DNA from: an uncultured Clostridia bacterium
GTDB taxonomy: Bacteria > Bacillota > Clostridia > Oscillospirales > Ruminococcaceae
Assembly: GCA_947627045.1 (NCBI GenBank)
Contig: CANQUM010000020.1
Location: 1-33,966, forward strand
Direction: 5' to 3'
Length of the DNA stretch: 33,966 bases
Positions 15,064 to 30,069 of the stretch are shown in pieces. The position numbers were made by a program, and so were the translations under genes. Position 1 is the stretch's first letter, and each line of letters opens with the position of its first letter. The notes below the pieces were generated by a model, which saw nothing but the letters and a program-made list of their open reading frames with translations, did not search any database and had not been told where the DNA came from.

Positions 15064-16032
15064 ATGATTGAGGTTAAAAATCTTTCAAAGCATTTTGGAG
15101 ATAAAAAGGCTGTAGACGGCATTTCTTTCACTGCTGAAGACGGCGAGATACTCGGATTTCTAGGGCCTAACGGCGCCGGAAAATCCACAACGATGAATAT
15201 TCTCACAGGGTATATTTCGTCAACAGACGGTGTTGCGCTGATAGACGGCGTTGACATTCTTGAAAACCCTATCAAGGCAAAGCAGAAAATAGGCTATCTT
15301 CCTGAGCAGCCGCCGCTGTATATGGATATGACGGTTAAGGAATATCTTTCGTTTGTGTATGACTTAAAAAAGTGTAAGCTGCCGAGAAATACGCATCTTA
15401 AAGATATTTGTAATCTTGTAAAAATAGAGAATGTTTACAACAGAGTTATAAAGAACCTTTCAAAGGGATATAAGCAGAGGGTAGGTCTTGCACAGGCACT
15501 TGTGGGAAATCCTAACGTGCTTATTTTAGACGAGCCTACTGTGGGTTTAGACCCTAATCAGATCATTGAAATAAGGACGCTTATCAAAAGGCTGGGTAAA
15601 AATCATACGGTTATTTTATCTTCGCATATTTTGTCTGAAGTTCAGGCTGTGTGCGATAAGATCGTTGTAATAAATCAGGGCAAAATAGTTGCCGACGATA
15701 CTGAAGAAAACCTTTCTAAAAATCTCGTCAACAGCAATAAAATCATGGTCAAGATAGACGGGCCTTCTGACGAGGTACAAAAGGTTATCGGTTCAATTGC
15801 AGGCATTAAAACTGTTGAAATGATTTCTAAGGAAACCGACGAATTCTGCGAATTTTCCATTGAATCGGAGGATGGCGTTGATATTCGCCGTGAACTGTTT
15901 AAGAGGATTTCTGAACGAAGCTGGTACATTATGGAGCTTAAGACTTCTGATATGTCGCTTGAAGATATATTCTTGAGATTAACGGTCGGTGAGAGTATTC
16001 CGGCTGTAAAGAGAAACGGAGGTAATGAATAA
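15064..16032 (+). CDS. ABC transporter ATP-binding protein, GldA-like (ABC-2 type)
   Basis: A 322-residue ATPase. Walker A is GPNGAGKST (about 34-42). The Q-loop is GYLPEQPPLY, the signature LSKGYKQRVGLAQAL, Walker B LILDEPTVGLDP and the H-loop SSHILSEV. The C-terminal ~90 residues form the accessory region typical of ABC-2 export ATPases (VMVKIDGPSDEV-like). It resembles GldA of the Bacteroidetes gliding system and related ATPases found widely in non-gliding bacteria. AAGGAGG precedes the ATG. The stop and the permease start share one base (TAATG), so the two are translated together. Confidence 0.9.
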   Translation: MIEVKNLSKHFGDKKAVDGISFTAEDGEILGFLGPNGAGKSTTMNILTGYISSTDGVALIDGVDILENPIKAKQKIGYLPEQPPLYMDMTVKEYLSFVYDLKKCKLPRNTHLKDICNLVKIENVYNRVIKNLSKGYKQRVGLAQALVGNPNVLILDEPTVGLDPNQIIEIRTLIKRLGKNHTVILSSHILSEVQAVCDKIVVINQGKIVADDTEENLSKNLVNSNKIMVKIDGPSDEVQKVIGSIAGIKTVEMISKETDEFCEFSIESEDGVDIRRELFKRISERSWYIMELKTSDMSLEDIFLRLTVGESIPAVKRNGGNE

Positions 16033-16772
16033 TGAAAGCAATTTTTAGAAGAGAATTTGTTTCTTATTTTACTACTCCGATAGGATATATTTTTCTTGCT
16101 GTATTTTTTGCATTGGCAGGTATTGATTACTCTGTAACATCAATAGCTAAGGGTTCTACCGGTTCATCAGGAAGCACTCAGGGATACGGAACGGCTGAAT
16201 TAGCTCAGTTTTTTCTGTGGCTGCTTATTATATTAGTTATTTTGATTCCTATTCTCACAATGAGGACATTATCAGAGGACAAAAGACAAAAAACAGATCA
16301 GGTTCTTTTGACGTCTCCTGTCAGCTTATCGGGAATTGTCGGCGGAAAATTTCTTGCTGCATTTTTGGTGTATATTATGGGCGTTGCAATTACGCTGGTG
16401 TTTTCAGTAGTGGTTTCTGCTTTTGCTAAGCCTGACTGGATCACTATATTCGGAAATATTGTAGGTCTGCTTCTTTTGGGAGCGGCTTGTATTTCAATTG
16501 GTATCTTTGCGTCAAGCCTTACTGAAAATCAGGTGGTTTCAGCAGTTATAAGTCTGGCTTCAATCGGGCTGATGAGTCTGCTGTCGGTAATATCCAGCTT
16601 TATACCGATAGAGTTTGTAAAAACTGTTCTCAATAAATTATGCTTCTTAGAGAGATATATTGGATTTACATACGGTCAATTCGATTTATCGAGTGCGTTA
16701 TATTTCATCAGCGTTGCCGTGGCATTTATGTTCTTTACAGTAAGAGTGCTGGAAAAGCGCCGTTGGGCTTAA
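16032..16772 (+). CDS. ABC-2 type permease, GldF-like
   Basis: A 246-residue integral membrane protein with about six hydrophobic segments. It begins MKAIFRREFVSYFTTPIGYIF, typical of ABC-2/GldF permeases. The cytoplasmic coupling segment MRTLSEDKRQKTDQVLLTSPVS is the family hallmark (EDKR...LLTSPVS). A Gly/Ser/Thr-rich outer loop (KGSTGSSGSTQGYG) lies between the first two membrane spans. It overlaps the ATPase gene by 1 nt and precedes the GldG-like gene by 14 bp. The substrate is unknown. Confidence 0.88.
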   Translation: MKAIFRREFVSYFTTPIGYIFLAVFFALAGIDYSVTSIAKGSTGSSGSTQGYGTAELAQFFLWLLIILVILIPILTMRTLSEDKRQKTDQVLLTSPVSLSGIVGGKFLAAFLVYIMGVAITLVFSVVVSAFAKPDWITIFGNIVGLLLLGAACISIGIFASSLTENQVVSAVISLASIGLMSLLSVISSFIPIEFVKTVLNKLCFLERYIGFTYGQFDLSSALYFISVAVAFMFFTVRVLEKRRWA

Positions 16773-16786
16773 AGGAGGTAGCGAAG

Positions 16787-18502
16787 ATGAATAATATAAA
16801 TGAAAATGATTTTGAGCAGGAAAAGCAGGTTGTTTCTGAGACATCAGAAAACAGTTTGGAAGAAACTGTTGATTTGAATTCTGCTGAGAATGAAACCGAG
16901 ACAGAAATAAGTGAAGAAATCTCTGAAAGTTCGGATATTCAGGAAAATCAGACAGAGAATACAACAGAGGAAAAGGCTAAAAAACAAAAAAAGGCAAAGA
17001 AAAACTTTAAAAAGCTAAAGCACGGAACAATGGCGACTGTTTTAACTGTAGTTTTTATAGTTGTTTTGGTCCTTGTAAATATTGTTGCGACAAGCATTTT
17101 TGATAGGTTTCCGTTTACAATTGATATGACATCAGATGACTCGTATACGATTTCTGATGAAACAGCCGATTATATAAAAAGTGTTGATAAAGAAGTAAAA
17201 ATCACAGTATTGTCAGAGGAAAAAGAATTTTCATCAACATCGAAATATATTAGGCAGTCTAATGAGATTTTAAAAAATATCGTTAAAAGCAACAAAAACT
17301 TTTCAATCAAGTATATAGATTTACTGTCAAATCCGGAGGTCAAATCTGAATATGAGGATTCGCTTTCTGAGTATGACATAATAGTTGAATCGGGTAAAAA
17401 TCACGAGAGAACAACACTTGTACACCCGCAGGATTTAGTTAAGTTTTCATCTGATTTTGAGGAATCTTTTCAGCAGAATATGGGAGGAACTCTTGACTCG
17501 TTTATTGAGTATTACGGCGGTATGACCGCTATCCAGAATTATTCTGCGGGAGTTGAGAGCAACTGTGCAGAGCAGGCATTCACGTCGGCAATTTTAAAGG
17601 TTACAGACGCAAACCCTGTAACGGTTACACTGCTTACAGGAAGAAAAGAGCTGGCTTCGCTGACATATTTTAAGACCCTGCTCAATGCAAACGGATATTC
17701 AGTGAACAGTATTAATATAACTACGCAGGAAATTCCAAAGGAAACAAACCTTATTGTAATGGGAGCACCCAGTGTCGACTATACTGAAAGCGAAGTTGAA
17801 AAGGTATCGTCATTTTTAGACAACGGAGGAAAGCTGGAAAAGAATCTTCTGTATATCGAAAGTGTTCAGCAGCCTAAAACTCCGAATATCGACGAGCTTT
17901 TAGAGGAATACGGAATAAAGTTCAGAGATGAATTTGTATACGACTCAGACGGTGAAAATGCAAGCAACGGATATGTATTTATGGAGCGTGCAAGCAATAA
18001 CTTTATGGACGACATAAAAGACGATTCGCTGAGATTGTTCACCAGCGTTTACACAAAGCCTATTACTATAGACTATAATAACAAGGAAATGCTTACCTGT
18101 GAGCCTTATATTCAGACGTCTGACACAGGATACACAATGGATTCTGAAAATAAAAAGCTGACAAGCGGAGTAACTGTTACAGGAGCAGTCGGCTCTAAGG
18201 CGGCATTTGCCGGTGAGGATACCTATTACAGCAACCTGATTGCTTTAGGCTCTGAATTTTTCCTGGATGATACTGTACTTCAGATGTCGCAGTATCTGAA
18301 CAGACAGTGGATACTGAGCATTGTAAACGGTGTTACCGGAAAATCATCAGGCATTACCATTGAACCAAAGACTGTTGAGGGCGGAATGTTTGATCTTACC
18401 AATACGCAGATAAAGGTTTTGGAGTGGACATTTATTGTTATCATTCCTGTAATTGTTCTTGCAATAGGCATCATAATCTGGTTAAGGAGAAAGAACAGAT
18501 AA
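16787..18502 (+). CDS. GldG-like ABC-associated membrane protein
   Basis: 571 residues from ATG 16787, which has AAAGGAGG 8 nt upstream (the open frame extends further back but inside the permease gene). A very acidic, Glu/Thr/Ser-rich cytoplasmic stretch (about 1-62) and a Lys-rich patch precede a membrane span (about 81-105). A large extracellular domain follows, with the GldG/ABC_transp_aux pattern (FTIDMTSDDSYTISDETADY, VTLLTGRKELAS, LIVMGAPSVDYTESEVEKV). A second span (about 545-567) ends in WLRRKNR. This two-span design with a periplasmic-type core is that of GldG. The acidic N-terminal extension is an addition whose role is unknown. Confidence 0.85.
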   Translation: MNNINENDFEQEKQVVSETSENSLEETVDLNSAENETETEISEEISESSDIQENQTENTTEEKAKKQKKAKKNFKKLKHGTMATVLTVVFIVVLVLVNIVATSIFDRFPFTIDMTSDDSYTISDETADYIKSVDKEVKITVLSEEKEFSSTSKYIRQSNEILKNIVKSNKNFSIKYIDLLSNPEVKSEYEDSLSEYDIIVESGKNHERTTLVHPQDLVKFSSDFEESFQQNMGGTLDSFIEYYGGMTAIQNYSAGVESNCAEQAFTSAILKVTDANPVTVTLLTGRKELASLTYFKTLLNANGYSVNSINITTQEIPKETNLIVMGAPSVDYTESEVEKVSSFLDNGGKLEKNLLYIESVQQPKTPNIDELLEEYGIKFRDEFVYDSDGENASNGYVFMERASNNFMDDIKDDSLRLFTSVYTKPITIDYNNKEMLTCEPYIQTSDTGYTMDSENKKLTSGVTVTGAVGSKAAFAGEDTYYSNLIALGSEFFLDDTVLQMSQYLNRQWILSIVNGVTGKSSGITIEPKTVEGGMFDLTNTQIKVLEWTFIVIIPVIVLAIGIIIWLRRKNR

Positions 18503-18521
18503 GCATTAAGGAGAAATCTAA

Positions 18522-20042
18522 ATGAATTCTAAAGTAAAGAGTATTATCATATGTGTTGTTGTTATTGCTTGTCTGGGGGTTACGCTTCTTGTGCTTAATT
18601 TAACAGGCAAGAATGAAGATAACTCAAGCAGTACTGCGCCGAGCGTTGCCGACAGCGAGAAAACAATATCTCTGACAGATGATATTGCAGATGACCTTGA
18701 TAATACCTATGTTAAATCTATAGAAATCAAAAATGAGCGGGATAGCTTTACTGTCAGTCAGGTCAGCGGTAAAACTGACGAGTGGGAGATAAAGGCTTTA
18801 GACGGAATTGAGCAGTCAAACACTGTTTATTCGGGTCTGGCTTCAATTGCAGCAGATCTTTCTGCAACAGATATAGCAGAAGAAAATGCACAAGATCTAT
18901 CTAAGTACGGACTTGATAATGCAAAGACTAGATTTACCGTTACATTTTCTGATGATAATAACACAACGAGGACTTACTTGATTGGAGAAACAACTCCGAA
19001 CGAGAAAGATTACTATTTATGCGAAGAAGGAAAGAATACCGTTTACACGGCGGCAACAGGCTCGCTTTCATACTTTTTCTACACAAAAGAAGATTTTGTA
19101 GCCTTGACAATGCTTGAGAAGCCGGCAAGCGATGATGATTACCCGGATTTTATAAAGGAAACGATTAAATCTGAAGATCTCGACTACGATATGGTTATCG
19201 TAACACCTGAGAAAACTCTGAATTATATGCCGTCTGCGCAGGTTATGACAGAGCCGGTATTTGCGTATCTCGACGCAACAAATTCGGCAGAGATCACTCA
19301 CGGAATGTGGGGATTATCGGCAGCTTCGGCAGTTGTGGCAAAGCCGGATAAAAACGACTTCAAAAAGTACGGTCTTTCAAAGCCTTGCACTAAGGTCATT
19401 CTCGAGACAAGTGCGGGAACTTATACACTGTCTGTAGGAGATCCTATATATGCAAAGGATTCTAAGGGCAAGGAAACTACAACAGTTGAGTCATATTACA
19501 CTTATTTAGACGGCGTAAGCGGTAAAGATGTTATATTTACAGTTTCCGCCAAAAGCCTTCCGTGGGTGGGAGCAGAGCCGCCTGACTTTATTTCAAGTCT
19601 TATGACTTATAATGCCGCGACCGATTTAAAATCAGTAGTTGTTGATGACGGAAAGGATAAAACTGTATTTAAGCTGAAAGCTGTTGTTGATCCGAAAGCG
19701 CAGGCTGATGAAGATGAACAGCAGGAAATGAAGCTGAGTTCTGTAAAATTGAACGGCAAGGAGCTCAACGTCGAGGCGTGGAAGAGCTGGTATCAGGTTC
19801 TTCTACAGTGTCCTACTTCGGAGATCTATTTTAAAGAACCCAAAACGAAGTGTTATCTGACAATAAGCATCAACAGAAACGACGGCGACAAAGACGTTTT
19901 GAAGTTCTTTAAGGATACAAGCAGAAGAACTATTGTCAAGCTGAACGGCAAAACAAGCTATCGCATAGAAAGCTCATATGTAAATAAGCTGATGTCGGAT
20001 ATGCAGCTTGCGATAGAAGGCAAAGAAGTTCAAACAGATTAA
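18522..20042 (+). CDS. DUF4340 domain membrane-anchored protein of the Gld-like ABC module
   Basis: 506 residues with one N-terminal span (IIICVVVIACLGVTLLVLNL) and an extracytoplasmic remainder. Two similar halves are visible, each with a VKSIEIKNERDSFTVSQ- or DYDMVIVTPEKTLNYM-type strand and a K(D/N)xxKYGL(S/D) motif (LSKYGLDNAKTRFTV; FKKYGLSKPCTKVIL), the repeat pattern of DUF4340. Such proteins regularly follow GldG-like genes in many phyla. AAGGAGA lies 8 nt before the ATG and 19 bp separate it from the previous gene. The biochemical role is unknown; a partner domain for the exporter is inference. Confidence 0.82.
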   Translation: MNSKVKSIIICVVVIACLGVTLLVLNLTGKNEDNSSSTAPSVADSEKTISLTDDIADDLDNTYVKSIEIKNERDSFTVSQVSGKTDEWEIKALDGIEQSNTVYSGLASIAADLSATDIAEENAQDLSKYGLDNAKTRFTVTFSDDNNTTRTYLIGETTPNEKDYYLCEEGKNTVYTAATGSLSYFFYTKEDFVALTMLEKPASDDDYPDFIKETIKSEDLDYDMVIVTPEKTLNYMPSAQVMTEPVFAYLDATNSAEITHGMWGLSAASAVVAKPDKNDFKKYGLSKPCTKVILETSAGTYTLSVGDPIYAKDSKGKETTTVESYYTYLDGVSGKDVIFTVSAKSLPWVGAEPPDFISSLMTYNAATDLKSVVVDDGKDKTVFKLKAVVDPKAQADEDEQQEMKLSSVKLNGKELNVEAWKSWYQVLLQCPTSEIYFKEPKTKCYLTISINRNDGDKDVLKFFKDTSRRTIVKLNGKTSYRIESSYVNKLMSDMQLAIEGKEVQTD

Positions 20043-20099: not shown

Positions 20100-20129
20100 A
20101 GTGTAAAGCCATAGAAGGGAGTGAATAGT

Positions 20130-20420
20130 ATGGCAACAAAAAAATGCGACTTTTTCACATACAAGGGATTGCCGCTTGTAAGGAAAGGAAAGGAAATTTA
20201 TTACGGCAATATGTCAGATGATTATGTTGTTATGATTCAGATACTTTCAACTGAGAAAATAAACGGTTTAGACGTTGCAAACAGAGTAAGAATTTTCAGA
20301 ATAGCAACAGATGAGAGTATTCCGCCGAATGAGAGAATCAATAAGACTGCTGAGAAAACAAGTCTTTATGATGCTCTTGATATAGCAAGCGCATGGCTTT
20401 CTGATTATATTAAAAAGTAA
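20130..20420 (+). CDS. Hypothetical 96-residue protein
   Basis: The protein starts MATKKCDFFTYKGLPLVRKG. I do not recognise a named family. It is a soluble-looking alpha/beta protein with a beta-rich front half (KGLPLVRKGKEIYYGNMSDDYVVMI) and a helical end (SLYDALDIASAWLSDYIKK). The ATG at 20130 follows GGGAGTG, and an in-frame GTG at 20121 falls on that site. It is a single-gene unit with its own promoter and strong terminator. It has a normal ribosome site and codon use like its neighbours, so it is probably expressed. It has no membrane segment or signal peptide. Confidence 0.8.
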   Translation: MATKKCDFFTYKGLPLVRKGKEIYYGNMSDDYVVMIQILSTEKINGLDVANRVRIFRIATDESIPPNERINKTAEKTSLYDALDIASAWLSDYIKK

Positions 20421-20443: not shown

Positions 20444-20475
20444 AAGGTATTCCGCATTTTAGCGGAGTACCTTTT
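20444..20475 (+). terminator. Intrinsic terminator of the 96-residue orphan gene
   Basis: A 12-bp stem (AAGGTATTCCGC 20444-20455 with GCGGAGTACCTT 20462-20473, one wobble pair) has a 6-nt loop and a short T tract (CTTTTATCTTT). It cleanly separates this gene from the MBOAT gene. Confidence 0.85.
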
Positions 20476-20499: not shown

Positions 20500-20528
20500 T
20501 TGATAAAAGCTGTGATATATGTTAAAAT
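20500..20528 (+). promoter_or_regulatory. Promoter of the MBOAT/DHHW-like gene pair
   Basis: TTGATA (20500-20505), a 17-bp spacer and TAAAAT (20523-20528) lie about 40 bp before the TTG start of the MBOAT gene and directly after the upstream terminator. Confidence 0.7.
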
Positions 20529-20567
20529 ATAAAGAAATAATTGGCTTTGTATAAAGGAGTATGCAGT

Positions 20568-21938
20568 TTGTTATATTCGGATCTTATATTTATATATGGT
20601 TTTCTTCCGATAACTATACTGATAACGTTTTTGGATAGAAGTACGGAGTATAAAAATCTTATACTCGTTTTAACGTCGGTTGTATTTTTCACCTTCGGAA
20701 GACCGATTATTATATGTCTTTTGTTTTTGACAGTTATTTTTGATTATTTATTCGGTCTTGTAGCGGGATACGGCAGAAAAAAATGGCTAAGAGCATTGAG
20801 CTTTTTTTGTTCAATAGTTATGAATTCGACCTTATATATAGTTTTCTGCTGGAACTCTTTATTTAAAAACTTCGGTATTGAACAACTGACATTAACTAAA
20901 AAACTAATTCCTATGTGCATTGCTTTTTACACAATAAGAGGAATTTCATACGTCGGGGATGTATATAAGAAAAGGATCAAGCCTGAAAAGAATATATTCT
21001 GTCTGCTTGTTTATATGGTAAACTATCATTTTATGGTAGCAGGTCCTATTGTAAGATACGGAGATATTTCAGATAAGATAAGACGGAGAACAATAACAGG
21101 TCAGAATCTGAACGACGGTTTGAACAGATTTATAATTGGCTTTGCAAAGGTTATGATACTTGGGATTTCGTTTGAAAAAGTAAAAGAGGCAGGCTTGAAT
21201 TTTGCCGAGCTGACGCCATTCGGCGCATGGGTTGGTATGCTTGCGTTTATAGGGAATATTTATTTTGTTTTTACAGGCTATATAGATATGGCTATGGGAC
21301 TGGGACTGCTAAACGGTTTTAAGTATAAAGAAAACTTTTTGCCGTATTCTGTTAGAGGTTATGTAAGTGGAATAGTAAAGGGATTTAATAAGCTTCTTAT
21401 TGATTTTTTTGAGGATTTTTTGGTAGTTCCTTTTAAAAGAAACAAGAGCAAATATATATCAGGCGTATTACTTTCAGGTGTTTTGATTGGTTTGTGGTAT
21501 GGTTTCAGCCAGAATTTTTTGATATTCGGTTTGTATTTTGCTCTGCTGGTGATTATTGAAAAGCTGTTTTTAAAACGCATTTTAGATAAGCTGCCGAAGA
21601 TAATAGGATTTATTTATACATTCTTTGCCGTATTTGTAGGAGCGGCAATTGCATATTTTTCAAAGCTGGAGGATTTTCTGCACTGGTTTAAAGCTCTCTT
21701 CGGCGTAGGAACAGATTATATGTGGAGCGTTAATATGAGAAACAAGACGCTTTCATATTTGTTTTTGCTGATAATCGGTGTTTTCATTATTATACCGGGC
21801 TTTAAGAATATTATAAAATCTCAGCTTAAAGCCTATTCTCAAAAAAGCGAGAGGAATTATGCAGTTATTAGAATTTCACAGACAGTGTGTATATGTCTGT
21901 TATTAGTAATGGCTACAGCGTCGAGCGTAACAGCTTGA
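20568..21938 (+). CDS. MBOAT-family membrane protein lacking the catalytic histidines (probable pseudo-acyltransferase)
   Basis: A 456-residue polytopic membrane protein matching AlgI/DltB-type membrane-bound O-acyltransferases along its length. It starts MLYSDLIFIYGFLPITI, has FYTIRGISYVGDVYKK, the AGPIVRYGDIS block, NIYFVFTGYIDMAMGLGLLNGF and ENFLPYS. Where active members have RRWH before WFRDYVYIPL, this protein has KGFN (Asn274) before DFFEDFLVVPF. Where they have the invariant WHG, it has WYG (Tyr311). The following GLYHG reads GLYFA (Phe324). Both signature histidines are therefore absent, yet the fold and reading frame are intact. TTG 20568 is chosen because AAAGGAG lies 8 nt upstream and the N-terminus fits the family. 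An active acyltransferase seems unlikely; a scaffold or channel role is inference. Confidence 0.85.
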   Translation: MLYSDLIFIYGFLPITILITFLDRSTEYKNLILVLTSVVFFTFGRPIIICLLFLTVIFDYLFGLVAGYGRKKWLRALSFFCSIVMNSTLYIVFCWNSLFKNFGIEQLTLTKKLIPMCIAFYTIRGISYVGDVYKKRIKPEKNIFCLLVYMVNYHFMVAGPIVRYGDISDKIRRRTITGQNLNDGLNRFIIGFAKVMILGISFEKVKEAGLNFAELTPFGAWVGMLAFIGNIYFVFTGYIDMAMGLGLLNGFKYKENFLPYSVRGYVSGIVKGFNKLLIDFFEDFLVVPFKRNKSKYISGVLLSGVLIGLWYGFSQNFLIFGLYFALLVIIEKLFLKRILDKLPKIIGFIYTFFAVFVGAAIAYFSKLEDFLHWFKALFGVGTDYMWSVNMRNKTLSYLFLLIIGVFIIIPGFKNIIKSQLKAYSQKSERNYAVIRISQTVCICLLLVMATASSVTA

Positions 21939-21964
21939 GACTGATATAAAGGAATAGATTATTG

Positions 21965-22843
21965 ATGAGTAAAAAAAGAAAAAGAAAACTTAATAACTTG
22001 CAGTCTAACAGTGCAAACGGCAATTTCAAGGCAAATGATCATCAGAAAAAGGCTGATGATTATGATTACGAAAATGCCGTATACCCTGACAATGCTTGTC
22101 TTGCTGTTCCGCCTGAGGAAAGTGATGAAGATCTATCTAAGGGCGATATTGTTCTGCATAAAATAGGCAGGGAAGCTGTGGTCGGCGAATATAATTTTAT
22201 AAATGTTGCGGTCGTTTTTATACTTATTATGATAATGGGTATTTCCTTTGCACTTTTAAGGAATACCGATGAATATATAGAAAATAATAATAAAATTTCC
22301 ACTGAAACCGTTTTGAACGGCAAGTTTACGAAAAAACTTTCAAAAAACTATATGAAAAGACTTCCGGGCAAGCAATTATTATTTGATGCAAACAGAGTTT
22401 TCTCATATGCTTACGGTCTTGGGAGTTATAATGATGAAAAAGGTTTTGTTTCTGCTGATACGGGTAAAATAATAGGAATAAAAACCTATAATGAGCCTAT
22501 TATGGTTACTCTTACAACTACGGCTCCCCCAACGACAACGCAATACACAGGAAAAACGACAAATACCACAGTTAAATTAAGAGGTTCTGTATTTGTAGGT
22601 CCTCCCAGTCCCTTGACTACTACAAAGAAAACCAAGAAGACTACTACAAAGAAAACCACGGCAAAAACAACATCCGTAACAACTACTACTGCGTTTACAG
22701 GTACTACATGGTCGTTTAAGGGAACAACTACAAAAAGCGGCTTACCTGATTTCTCTATGACTACTTCACACACAACACTTGTTGAGCCGCCGACATCGGC
22801 AAGCACAACTATCGGAGTGAGCAATGAAGAACAGCAATTTTAA
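21965..22843 (+). CDS. Membrane-anchored DHHW-like N-terminal domain with Thr-rich tail, no esterase domain
   Basis: 292 residues. The cytoplasmic N-terminus is Lys-rich then acidic (1-77), with one membrane span at about 78-98. Residues about 99-170 read RNTDEYIENNNKISTETVLNGKF, KLSKNYMKRLPGKQLLFDAN and SYAYGLGSYNDEKGFVSADTGKI. This matches the start of DHHW/AlgX-type proteins, whose genes commonly follow MBOAT genes (ENR-like entry, D-x-F/L-PGR/K segment, NGV-DG turn). The SGNH/DHHW esterase domain that should follow is missing. Residues about 183-283 are Thr/Lys/Pro-rich (TTTKKTKKTTTKK). The start is ATG 21965 or TTG 21962; AAAGGA suits either. It follows the MBOAT gene by 26 bp and overlaps the next gene by 20 bp. 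The domain match is by eye. Confidence 0.7.
   Translation: MSKKRKRKLNNLQSNSANGNFKANDHQKKADDYDYENAVYPDNACLAVPPEESDEDLSKGDIVLHKIGREAVVGEYNFINVAVVFILIMIMGISFALLRNTDEYIENNNKISTETVLNGKFTKKLSKNYMKRLPGKQLLFDANRVFSYAYGLGSYNDEKGFVSADTGKIIGIKTYNEPIMVTLTTTAPPTTTQYTGKTTNTTVKLRGSVFVGPPSPLTTTKKTKKTTTKKTTAKTTSVTTTTAFTGTTWSFKGTTTKSGLPDFSMTTSHTTLVEPPTSASTTIGVSNEEQQF
22615..22658 (+). repeat. 24-bp coding tandem repeat in the Thr-rich tail
   Basis: The 20-mer GACTACTACAAAGAAAACCA occurs exactly at 22615-22634 and 22639-22658 (period 24 bp). It encodes duplicated TTTKKTKK-type segments. Such repeats can change length by slippage without a frameshift. Confidence 0.85.
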
Positions 22844-23771
22844 GTATTCTGATGACAATAAAAGATACCATACTTATAACTACTATCTCAGGCATAAGTA
22901 CGGAATAAAGGTGTTTAAAGTACCGCTTAACGCAAATTTCGGTTGTCCTAACAGAGACGGAACAAAAGGCATCGGAGGCTGCACCTATTGTTCGGGCAAA
23001 ATGAGCGGAGACTATGCAGGCGACCCTCTGTTGGATATTGAAAGGCAGTATAATGAGGTGAGGCAGGTTCTCTTGAAAAAGTGGGAGAAAGCTAAGTGTA
23101 TACCATATTTTCAGGCGGGTACAAACACATATGCTCCGATAGATAAGCAAAAAGAGCTTTTTGAAAGGTCGTTGACCTTTAAAGACGCTGTGGGTCTTAA
23201 CATTTCAACAAGGGCAGATTGCATAGACGAGAAAATTGCAGATATGCTTTATGATTTGTCGATAAAAACAAATCTTGAGGTTGAGTTGGGATTGCAGACA
23301 ATTTACGATACAACAGCAGAAAAAATAAACCGCTGTCATACCTATGATGATTTTTTAAAGGGCTTCAATATGCTGTATGAACGCGGTATAGATATTTGCG
23401 TTCATATAATAAACGGGCTTCCCGAAGAAACAAGAGAGATGATGATAAACACTGCTAAAACGGTAGGCGCTTTGAGACCTCACGGTATAAAAATCCATCT
23501 TCTTTATATGATTAAGGGAACAAAAATGTATGAGCAGTTTTTAAACGGTGAAATAAAGCCTCTTGAAAGGGACGAGTATGTTCAGATTGTGTGCGATCAG
23601 CTTGAGAGAATACCCGAAAATGTTGTTATAGAAAGAGTAACAGGCGACGGAGTAAAAGAGGATCTGGCAGCGCCGCTGTGGAGCTTGAAAAAGTTTTGCG
23701 TTATGAACGAGATCGACAAGGAAATGGCAAGAAGAAATTCGTATCAAGGAATACTTGTCAGTGAAGAATAA
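22824..23771 (+). CDS. TIGR01212-type radical SAM protein (YtqA/YhcC-like)
   Basis: 315 residues. The radical SAM iron-sulfur ligands are Cys41, Cys53 and Cys56 in GCPNRDGTKGIGGCTYC, the unusual long CX11CX2C spacing of the TIGR01212/Elp3-like group. Further blocks are YFQAGTNTYAP, ISTRADCI, LEVELGLQT and HIINGLPEETREMM. The reaction of this family is not established. ATG 22824 has GGAGTG just upstream and lies inside the end of the previous gene (20-bp overlap in another frame), so translation is coupled. It ends 24 bp before rimM. Confidence 0.9.
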   Translation: MKNSNFKYSDDNKRYHTYNYYLRHKYGIKVFKVPLNANFGCPNRDGTKGIGGCTYCSGKMSGDYAGDPLLDIERQYNEVRQVLLKKWEKAKCIPYFQAGTNTYAPIDKQKELFERSLTFKDAVGLNISTRADCIDEKIADMLYDLSIKTNLEVELGLQTIYDTTAEKINRCHTYDDFLKGFNMLYERGIDICVHIINGLPEETREMMINTAKTVGALRPHGIKIHLLYMIKGTKMYEQFLNGEIKPLERDEYVQIVCDQLERIPENVVIERVTGDGVKEDLAAPLWSLKKFCVMNEIDKEMARRNSYQGILVSEE

Positions 23772-28743: not shown

Positions 28744-30069
28744 ATGAAAGTGCAAGGTCTTACTAAAAGAGTTTTTAGCTGTGTTATCGCTGCGGCGTTA
28801 GCTTTTGGGGTCTTTTCCGGAATATCATCATCGGATGTCATTAAAACCTCAGCCTCAAAAGTTTCGGAGGCAAAGGAAAAGGTCGAGGAGTATAAGGCTC
28901 AGCAGAAAGAATTTGAGAAGCAAATTAAAGAAACTGAAGATGATATTGCCAGAGAAGAGGAAAATCAGAAGGCAATTAAAAAGCAGATGGATACCGTTCA
29001 GAAAACTATTCAGAGTCTGGACGAATACATATCGGAACTTCAGGCAAATATTGATGACTTGAACGGTCAGATCGAAAAAACTCAAGAGCTGGTTGATACA
29101 AAAAAGACTGAGATCGACACAGGAATTAGTAATTTCAAGAAAAGACTCCGTGCAATGTATATTGCGGGAAATGATTCATACACATCTATCATTCTCGGCG
29201 CAGAAGATTTTTACGATATACTGATGAAGGTCGAGCTTGTTAAGAGAGTTGCCGACCACGACAATAAAGTTATTGACAGGCTTGTAGCACTCAAGAATGA
29301 ATATGAGGCGGCAGAGAAAAAGCTCGAGGAGCAGAAGGCTCAAGTTGAAAGCGAAAAGGCTACATATGACAAGCAAAAAGAAGAAAAGAAACAGCAGAGA
29401 GCTAAGCTGAAACAACTGTATTCTCAGAGCGCTGAGGCGGAAAAAGCATTAAAAGAAGACAAGGCTGTCTTTGAAAAGAAGAAGGACGAGATAGCTAAGG
29501 AACAGGAAAGTGCTGAAGCGCAATGGGCAAAGCTCGTTGAAGAAGCTAGACAGCGTGCTGCAGCACGAGAAGCTGCAAGAAGTGCTGCATGGCAGAACGA
29601 TACCCCGAGCGGAAATACTGCCAGAACTGCCGGCGGTTCTTCAAAAGTAACAGGCGACTTTATATGGCCGGTTCCGGGATTTTACAATATCACTTACGGA
29701 GTAGGCTGGCGCTGGGGAGCTTATCATGCAGGTATTGATATAGCTTCAAGCGGAATCAGAGGCGCTCAGATTGTAGCTTCTGACGCAGGAACTGTAGTTC
29801 AGGCAGAAAATTATTGCCCCCACGACTACGGCAAAAGCGGAAGCTGCGGCTGCGGCGGAGGTTACGGCAGACATTGTATTGTCGATCATGGAAACGGATA
29901 TATGACTTTATACGGTCATATGGAAAATTGTATAGTGAATGTAGGCGACAAGGTAAATCAGGGGCAAACCTTAGGTTATGTCGGATCTACAGGATTTTCT
30001 ACAGGTGCTCATTGTCATTTTGAAGTAAGACTTAACGGAGTGGCTCAGGACCCTGAAAACTATGTATAA
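28744..30069 (+). CDS. Secreted M23 murein hydrolase with coiled coil (PcsB/EnvC-type, FtsEX partner)
   Basis: 441 residues. A signal peptide (Lys/Arg start, hydrophobic VIAAALAFGVFSGISS) precedes a long coiled coil (about 40-270), the region that docks on FtsX. A short linker with GNTARTAGGSSK follows, then a C-terminal LytM/M23 domain (about 300-441). Zn ligands are visible: His328 and Asp332 in HAGID and His425 in the HxH motif (His423-Cys424-His425). The motif reads HCHFEV rather than the usual HLHFEV. A Cys-rich insertion (Cys358, 368, 370, 378) sits before the conserved GYGRH block. The domain should be active. Placement after ftsEX supports the partner assignment. Confidence 0.9.
   Translation: MKVQGLTKRVFSCVIAAALAFGVFSGISSSDVIKTSASKVSEAKEKVEEYKAQQKEFEKQIKETEDDIAREEENQKAIKKQMDTVQKTIQSLDEYISELQANIDDLNGQIEKTQELVDTKKTEIDTGISNFKKRLRAMYIAGNDSYTSIILGAEDFYDILMKVELVKRVADHDNKVIDRLVALKNEYEAAEKKLEEQKAQVESEKATYDKQKEEKKQQRAKLKQLYSQSAEAEKALKEDKAVFEKKKDEIAKEQESAEAQWAKLVEEARQRAAAREAARSAAWQNDTPSGNTARTAGGSSKVTGDFIWPVPGFYNITYGVGWRWGAYHAGIDIASSGIRGAQIVASDAGTVVQAENYCPHDYGKSGSCGCGGGYGRHCIVDHGNGYMTLYGHMENCIVNVGDKVNQGQTLGYVGSTGFSTGAHCHFEVRLNGVAQDPENYV

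Follow-up and report, generated by a model that had tools for sequence, protein, structure and literature searches.

Two adjacent forward-strand genes of contig CANQUM010000020.1, from an uncultured Clostridia bacterium, form the subject of this study (Table 1). The contig, one of 75 in a 2.1 Mb genome, is called the window below and was analysed over its whole 33,966 nucleotides. The upstream gene encodes a pseudo-MBOAT, a protein related to the MBOAT acyltransferases in which the catalytic residues are replaced. The downstream gene begins 26 bases after the MBOAT stop codon, and its product is related to the DHHW-type SGNH partners of MBOATs but carries a Thr-rich tail in place of an esterase. 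The two losses have been kept together throughout the genus and in a wider subfamily, and the pair most likely serves a non-enzymatic purpose at the surface of the cell.

Table 1. Positions of the gene pair, its parts and adjacent features in the window
Feature	Position	Strand	Basis or remark
Terminator-like hairpin	20444-20473		motif scan; just 5' of the promoter-like site
Promoter-like site TTGATA-17-TAAAAT, TG before second hexamer	20500..20528	+	consensus match only
Pseudo-MBOAT, 456 aa, start TTG 20568	20568..21938	+	
Codon of Asn274, place of first MBOAT His (WRRWHIS)	21387..21389	+	N in 49/57 pseudo-MBOATs, H in 30/31 ordinary
Codon of Tyr311, place of invariant catalytic His (WHG)	21498..21500	+	Y in 47/57 pseudo-MBOATs; DltB alignment
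Esterase-less DHHW-type partner, 292 aa, start ATG 21965	21965..22843	+	
Single transmembrane helix of partner, residues 79-97	22199..22255	+	hydropathy
DHHW-type entry segment, about residues 98-166, presumed MBOAT-docking module	22256..22462	+	hhalign; dN/dS
Thr/Lys/Pro-rich tail, about residues 183-292, place of ordinary DHHW linker	22511..22840	+	
Island YTGKTTNTT...VFVGP in tail, about residues 194-214	22544..22606	+	invariant columns; largely kept in both genus clades
Radical SAM protein MnmL/YtqA (ytqA), next gene	22824..23771	+	TIGR01212 E 2e-98; 20-base overlap with partner

Catalytic residues and domains of the two proteins

Sequence homology and the predicted fold place the first protein in the MBOAT superfamily; for both proteins, family assignments were based on relatives, profile-profile comparison, and sequence and fold matches in the PDB. 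PF03062 is above cut-off in two relatives with 48-49% identity (genomes G001 and G002), a pseudo-MBOAT profile matches DltB in the PDB at E 9e-7, and ordinary MBOATs of the genus share 25-30% identity with the pseudo-MBOAT. The window protein itself matches TIGR04091 at E 2e-13 with 50 bits, against a cut-off of 375.

The preliminary description had called this protein a pseudoenzyme, and one alignment of 57 pseudo-MBOAT relatives with 31 ordinary MBOATs bears this out. The ordinary His pair, WRRWHIS/LWHGA, reads GFNKL/LWYGF in the window protein. The invariant catalytic His is found in 0/57 pseudo-MBOATs but 31/31 ordinary proteins, and the upstream His in 1/57 versus 30/31. The acyl-shuttle Tyr of the C-terminal FxYxxF motif is likewise absent from all 57 (in L158 the C-terminus is lost at the edge of a contig) and present in all 31, and direct reading found no FxYxxF motif at the C-terminus of the window partner. 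According to published work, bacterial MBOATs, PatA and others, require the invariant His (PMC12148441), and MBOAT-SGNH pairs also require a Tyr that lies on DltX or within the C-terminal FxYxxF motif (PMC12148441, PMC11035591). Because both the catalytic His and the shuttle Tyr are gone, the pseudo-MBOAT should no longer transfer an acyl group. Ordinary MBOATs have 103 conserved columns. At 45 of these, half or more of the pseudo-MBOATs retain the residue; the other 58 fall short of this and include the block around both His.

For the partner, hhalign was run on entry segments stripped of the transmembrane helix. Those of 48 partners aligned with the set from 18 ordinary DHHW partners at probability 98.1, E 8.6e-14 and score 62.9, whereas 100 column shuffles of this comparison reached a best score of 14.0 and a best E of 0.022. 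In addition, a PF14286 match at E<=0.01 was seen in 6 of the 33 partners from other genera (best 2e-5), and a further partner, L089, matches at 5.3e-5, below the cut-off. The N-terminal resemblance to DHHW proteins is upheld by the profile comparison, and the partner keeps the anchor and entry segment of the DHHW family (PF14286). As claimed earlier, the esterase is missing: no SGNH/DHHW catalytic domain was found after the entry segment of the window partner, which is Thr-rich to near its C-terminus and has no Pfam match.

In each of the 18 ordinary DHHW partners that were examined from the family, the entry segment is joined to the catalytic domain by a polar linker, 39-120 residues long (median 61). 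Moreover, an 809-aa protein (L099; genome G049, positions 265-2691) joins a long cytoplasmic part, an anchor, an entry segment, a Thr-rich linker and a complete DHHW domain (PF14286 E 8.5e-48), perhaps in the ancestral layout; the end of the neighbouring frame, the only part covered, reads FLYFRF as in ordinary MBOATs. Since ordinary linkers sit at the place of the tail and L099 joins all the parts, the window partner would be the remainder left after loss of the catalytic domain. The preliminary description had seen an entry segment that switches to a stretch of Thr, Lys and Pro. Both parts are present, but they do not mark a switch to a new element; for the same two reasons the stretch is most likely the old linker.

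Tails are longer than ordinary linkers, with a median of 150 (three rows mis-parsed), and contain short conserved islands. A YTGK-like island occurs in 20/48 partners from 4 genera, 15 of them from the window genus (shuffled mean 1.9), and an N-x-(A/P)P-x-V-T-like island in 13/48 partners from 4 other genera (shuffled mean 0.4). Neither occurs in the 18 ordinary linkers; both patterns were picked after reading the tails. These islands are perhaps binding motifs. In the tails of L130-L168 they read NNDPPGAT/NNDAPEVT and FTGK/YTGK, by genus. Matches to SH3_3 were obtained in 5/33 partners outside the genus (best 3e-12), inside the tail where positions were read. In five genus genomes (clade B; L039-L043, L082-L086) a conserved domain about 110 residues long closes the partner; it was modelled with high confidence as a beta-sandwich, at a predicted local distance difference test (pLDDT) score of 89.9, and has only middling structural matches; the one sequence scanned had no Pfam match.

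Five genus genomes (G001, G002, G009, G014 and G008; loci L020, L021, L022, L024 and L025) contain a second, separate MBOAT system. Its MBOAT has both His and the FLYFRF end, and is followed by a DHHW-head protein of 193-285 aa (L052-L056) which, like the window partner, has an anchor, an entry segment and a Thr-rich end without an esterase. These heads match PF14286 at E 7.4e-10 to 2.5e-8, and never beyond its positions 1-112. They differ from the window partner in the intact residues of their MBOAT and in the next gene, the third of the system, which at some loci has a DLDNTLWGG stretch as in FkbH (weak match). Thus, loss of the esterase in the partner also occurs beside an active-looking MBOAT.

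Pairing, distribution and selection

Both genes occur in 15/15 genomes of the genus. Of 40 loci in other genera, 38 have a Thr/Pro-rich partner frame after the pseudo-MBOAT (33 found by script, 5 by eye), and the other two loci are cut. The joint retention of two partners without their chemistry therefore holds well beyond the window, and the gene-neighbourhood search suggested earlier yields a subfamily in 10 genera and not one odd pair. Pseudo-MBOATs were found in at least 48 of 396 family genomes, in 10 of 126 genera, and a search of 394 genomes of the order, run at a strict limit, gave no match beyond the family. In a quick tree, one branch of length 1.62 splits 44 pseudo-MBOATs from 26 ordinary MBOATs (support of 100 in the Shimodaira-Hasegawa-like approximate likelihood ratio test), as one old origin of the pseudo-MBOATs would give. 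A complete DHHW/SGNH esterase elsewhere that pairs with this MBOAT would, by the preliminary description, have refuted the idea; none was found, and 7/15 genus genomes, the window's own included, have no PF14286 match.

Both genes are under purifying selection. Between species of the genus, the ratio of nonsynonymous to synonymous substitution rates (dN/dS) was 0.085-0.106 for the pseudo-MBOAT (7 pairs). Within the partner it was lowest for the anchor and entry segment, at 0.015-0.045 (value obtained for 5 of 6 pairs), and higher for the tail (0.137-0.191, 6 pairs) and the N-terminal part (0.124-0.297, 5 of 6 pairs); all these values are rough because many dS values exceed 1, which tempers the argument drawn from them. 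In the published PatA/PatB model, the PatB segment after the anchor docks on the MBOAT. The strongest constraint hence falls on the segment that sits with the MBOAT in that model. This constraint on the part that apparently joins the two proteins separates docking from catalysis, and offers a testable case for non-transfer roles of MBOAT partners.

Possible functions of the pair

We consider it fairly probable that the pair is a non-catalytic descendant of bacterial MBOAT-SGNH acyltransferase pairs (PatA/PatB, DltB/DltD and DHHW types), in which a pseudo-MBOAT platform holds the partner and the Thr-rich tail reaches the wall as a tether, spacer or sensor. The first protein retains the multi-pass MBOAT fold but should have abandoned acyl transfer, and the second retains anchor, docking-type segment and polar linker but has dropped the SGNH domain. 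The pseudo-MBOAT would then act as a membrane platform in a physical complex with its partner, whose flexible tail, directed outward, may enter the cell wall and bind or space something there, which would suit a scaffold or a sensor.

Several observations weigh against this reading or against the family assignments behind it. The window partner has no match in Pfam at E<=1, PF14286 included, and the window MBOAT does not reach PF03062 at that limit, its sole match being Capsule_synth at E 0.21, below cut-off. PF03062 also missed 8/9 pseudo-MBOATs in one scan of relatives, and the pseudo-MBOAT structure model is middling (best pLDDT of five 73.0, worst 48.1). For the window genus alone, the entry-segment comparison is weaker, with probability 81.6, E 1.1e-5 and a score of 30.5 versus 16.9 shuffled. 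Complex formation was judged only from selection and from the distance correlation between MBOAT and entry segment, which is 0.82, or 0.69 with ytqA taken out (26 loci; 0/2000 permutations), and may reflect shared rates, not contact. In addition, tail charge varies by lineage from about +9 to below -30 and a recognised domain is present in only a minority of tails, so that a common wall ligand is not indicated.

The substituted cavity itself also argues in part for another outcome. The replacements of the two His are non-random (Asn274 in 49/57, Tyr311 in 47/57), Arg174, Lys194 and Glu331 are kept in 57/57, 54/57 and 57/57 pseudo-MBOATs, and a subfamily signature of D23, R124, E140, G209 and W373 is kept in 81-93%. 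The cavity is thus not simply decaying; it could have another activity, which leaves room for ligand binding. A cavity with Asn274, Tyr311 and the kept Arg and Lys might transfer a group via another residue or pass a small molecule, with the partner as accessory subunit. We regard this as unlikely, given that PatA and other MBOATs need the invariant His (PMC12148441), that neither the acyl-shuttle Tyr nor an SGNH acceptor is left, and that the Tyr311 block can no longer be recognised in genus g45 (L141, L147, L159, L162), yet a short partner still follows there.

The pair might instead regulate the cell's ordinary MBOAT-DHHW systems by competing for their partners or acceptors. This would have a precedent in HHATL, an MBOAT with His changed to Leu that interacts with Shh and is a negative regulator of the Hedgehog pathway (PMC5831804). 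In favour of such regulation, a PF03062 match exists in 9/15 genus genomes. However, the other six (G003-G006, G011 and G013, with G004 only 79% complete) keep the pair with neither a PF03062 nor a PF14286 match, and the usual neighbour of the pair is ytqA. This role seems distinctly improbable to us. The pseudo-MBOAT may work similarly to HHATL as a pseudoenzyme. HHATL differs in being an animal protein of the Hedgehog pathway. We know of no SGNH-derived partner for it.

A transmembrane receptor, in which binding of a cytoplasmic acyl donor or lipid by the pseudo-MBOAT is relayed by way of the docked entry segment to a tail bound to the wall, is a still more doubtful proposal. Arg174, Lys194 and Glu331 would then be donor-side residues lining the donor pocket. 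If it were true, it would represent a signalling or structural use of an MBOAT-SGNH pair.

The preliminary description suggested a glycosylated Thr-rich stalk. We find it very improbable that such an O-glycosylated stalk forms the main product, with a pseudo-MBOAT that serves just to anchor it or help its export. Tails reach 37% Thr in the window genus, but Thr drops to 14% in relatives, the tail occupies the ordinary DHHW linker position and has conserved islands, not composition alone, and Pfam scans of 20 window proteins gave no glycosyltransferase, a result that covers the window and not the remaining genome. That the two genes are being lost and persist only through a chance position near housekeeping genes, tRNA and translation genes among them, is hardly credible: catalytic residues are indeed gone in both proteins, but dN/dS of about 0.09 and 0.015-0.045 and the single tree branch together speak strongly against it, and the pair is present in 15/15 genomes and across 10 genera.

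Compared with known systems, the proposed non-catalytic pair shares the MBOAT fold, gene pair, single-span partner, post-anchor segment and flexible linker with PatA/PatB, DltB/DltX/DltD and other bacterial MBOAT-SGNH pairs, and differs in lacking the catalytic His, the FxYxxF acyl-shuttle motif and the SGNH domain. CcsH/CcsI of clostridial cellulose loci and PatA1/PatB1 of Bacillus cereus are of the same type as the ordinary pairs of this family; anchor, entry segment and linker are common to the window partner, but the window pair has no DHHW domain and lies in a different neighbourhood (ytqA). MBOAT/DHHW pairs are described as acetylation systems in PMC7710045 and PMC9487903. Among the matches listed in the open-access literature (subscription papers were not covered), no bacterial pseudo-MBOAT or such pair was described, PMC11143907 and PMC12419801 contained nothing relevant on these terms, and mammalian HHATL is the sole MBOAT exception named in the literature examined (PMC5831804). 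MBOAT-SGNH pairs in that literature are enzymes acylating wall polymers, whereas here a whole subfamily in one family keeps both proteins after losing the chemistry. Annotations should be treated with caution, as most such proteins fall below the Pfam MBOAT model, or may be named acyltransferases despite the lost residues.

Gene starts and neighbouring genes

The MBOAT frame is open from TTG 20541, and translation most likely starts nine codons inside this longest frame, because relatives begin there and AAAGGAG precedes it. The partner most likely starts at the ATG listed in Table 1. Promoter-like sites number 25 in the window versus 18.8 (standard deviation 4.7) after shuffling, and terminator-like sites 2 versus 2.9, with no clear excess; a single transcription unit therefore rests on spacing and conserved gene order.

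The ytqA gene is a frequent positional neighbour of the pair: it follows at 14/14 genus loci examined and at 28/40 loci outside the genus, the 12 misses comprising 4 near contig ends and 8 not. After it come the putative genes rimM and trmD. On the upstream side, positions 15064-20042 contain a Gld-like ABC transporter set. A 99-aa protein without a Pfam match (20121-20420 in the window) lies upstream of the pair at 13/16 loci examined, and a PcsB-like M23 peptidase with a coiled coil is encoded at 28744-30069.
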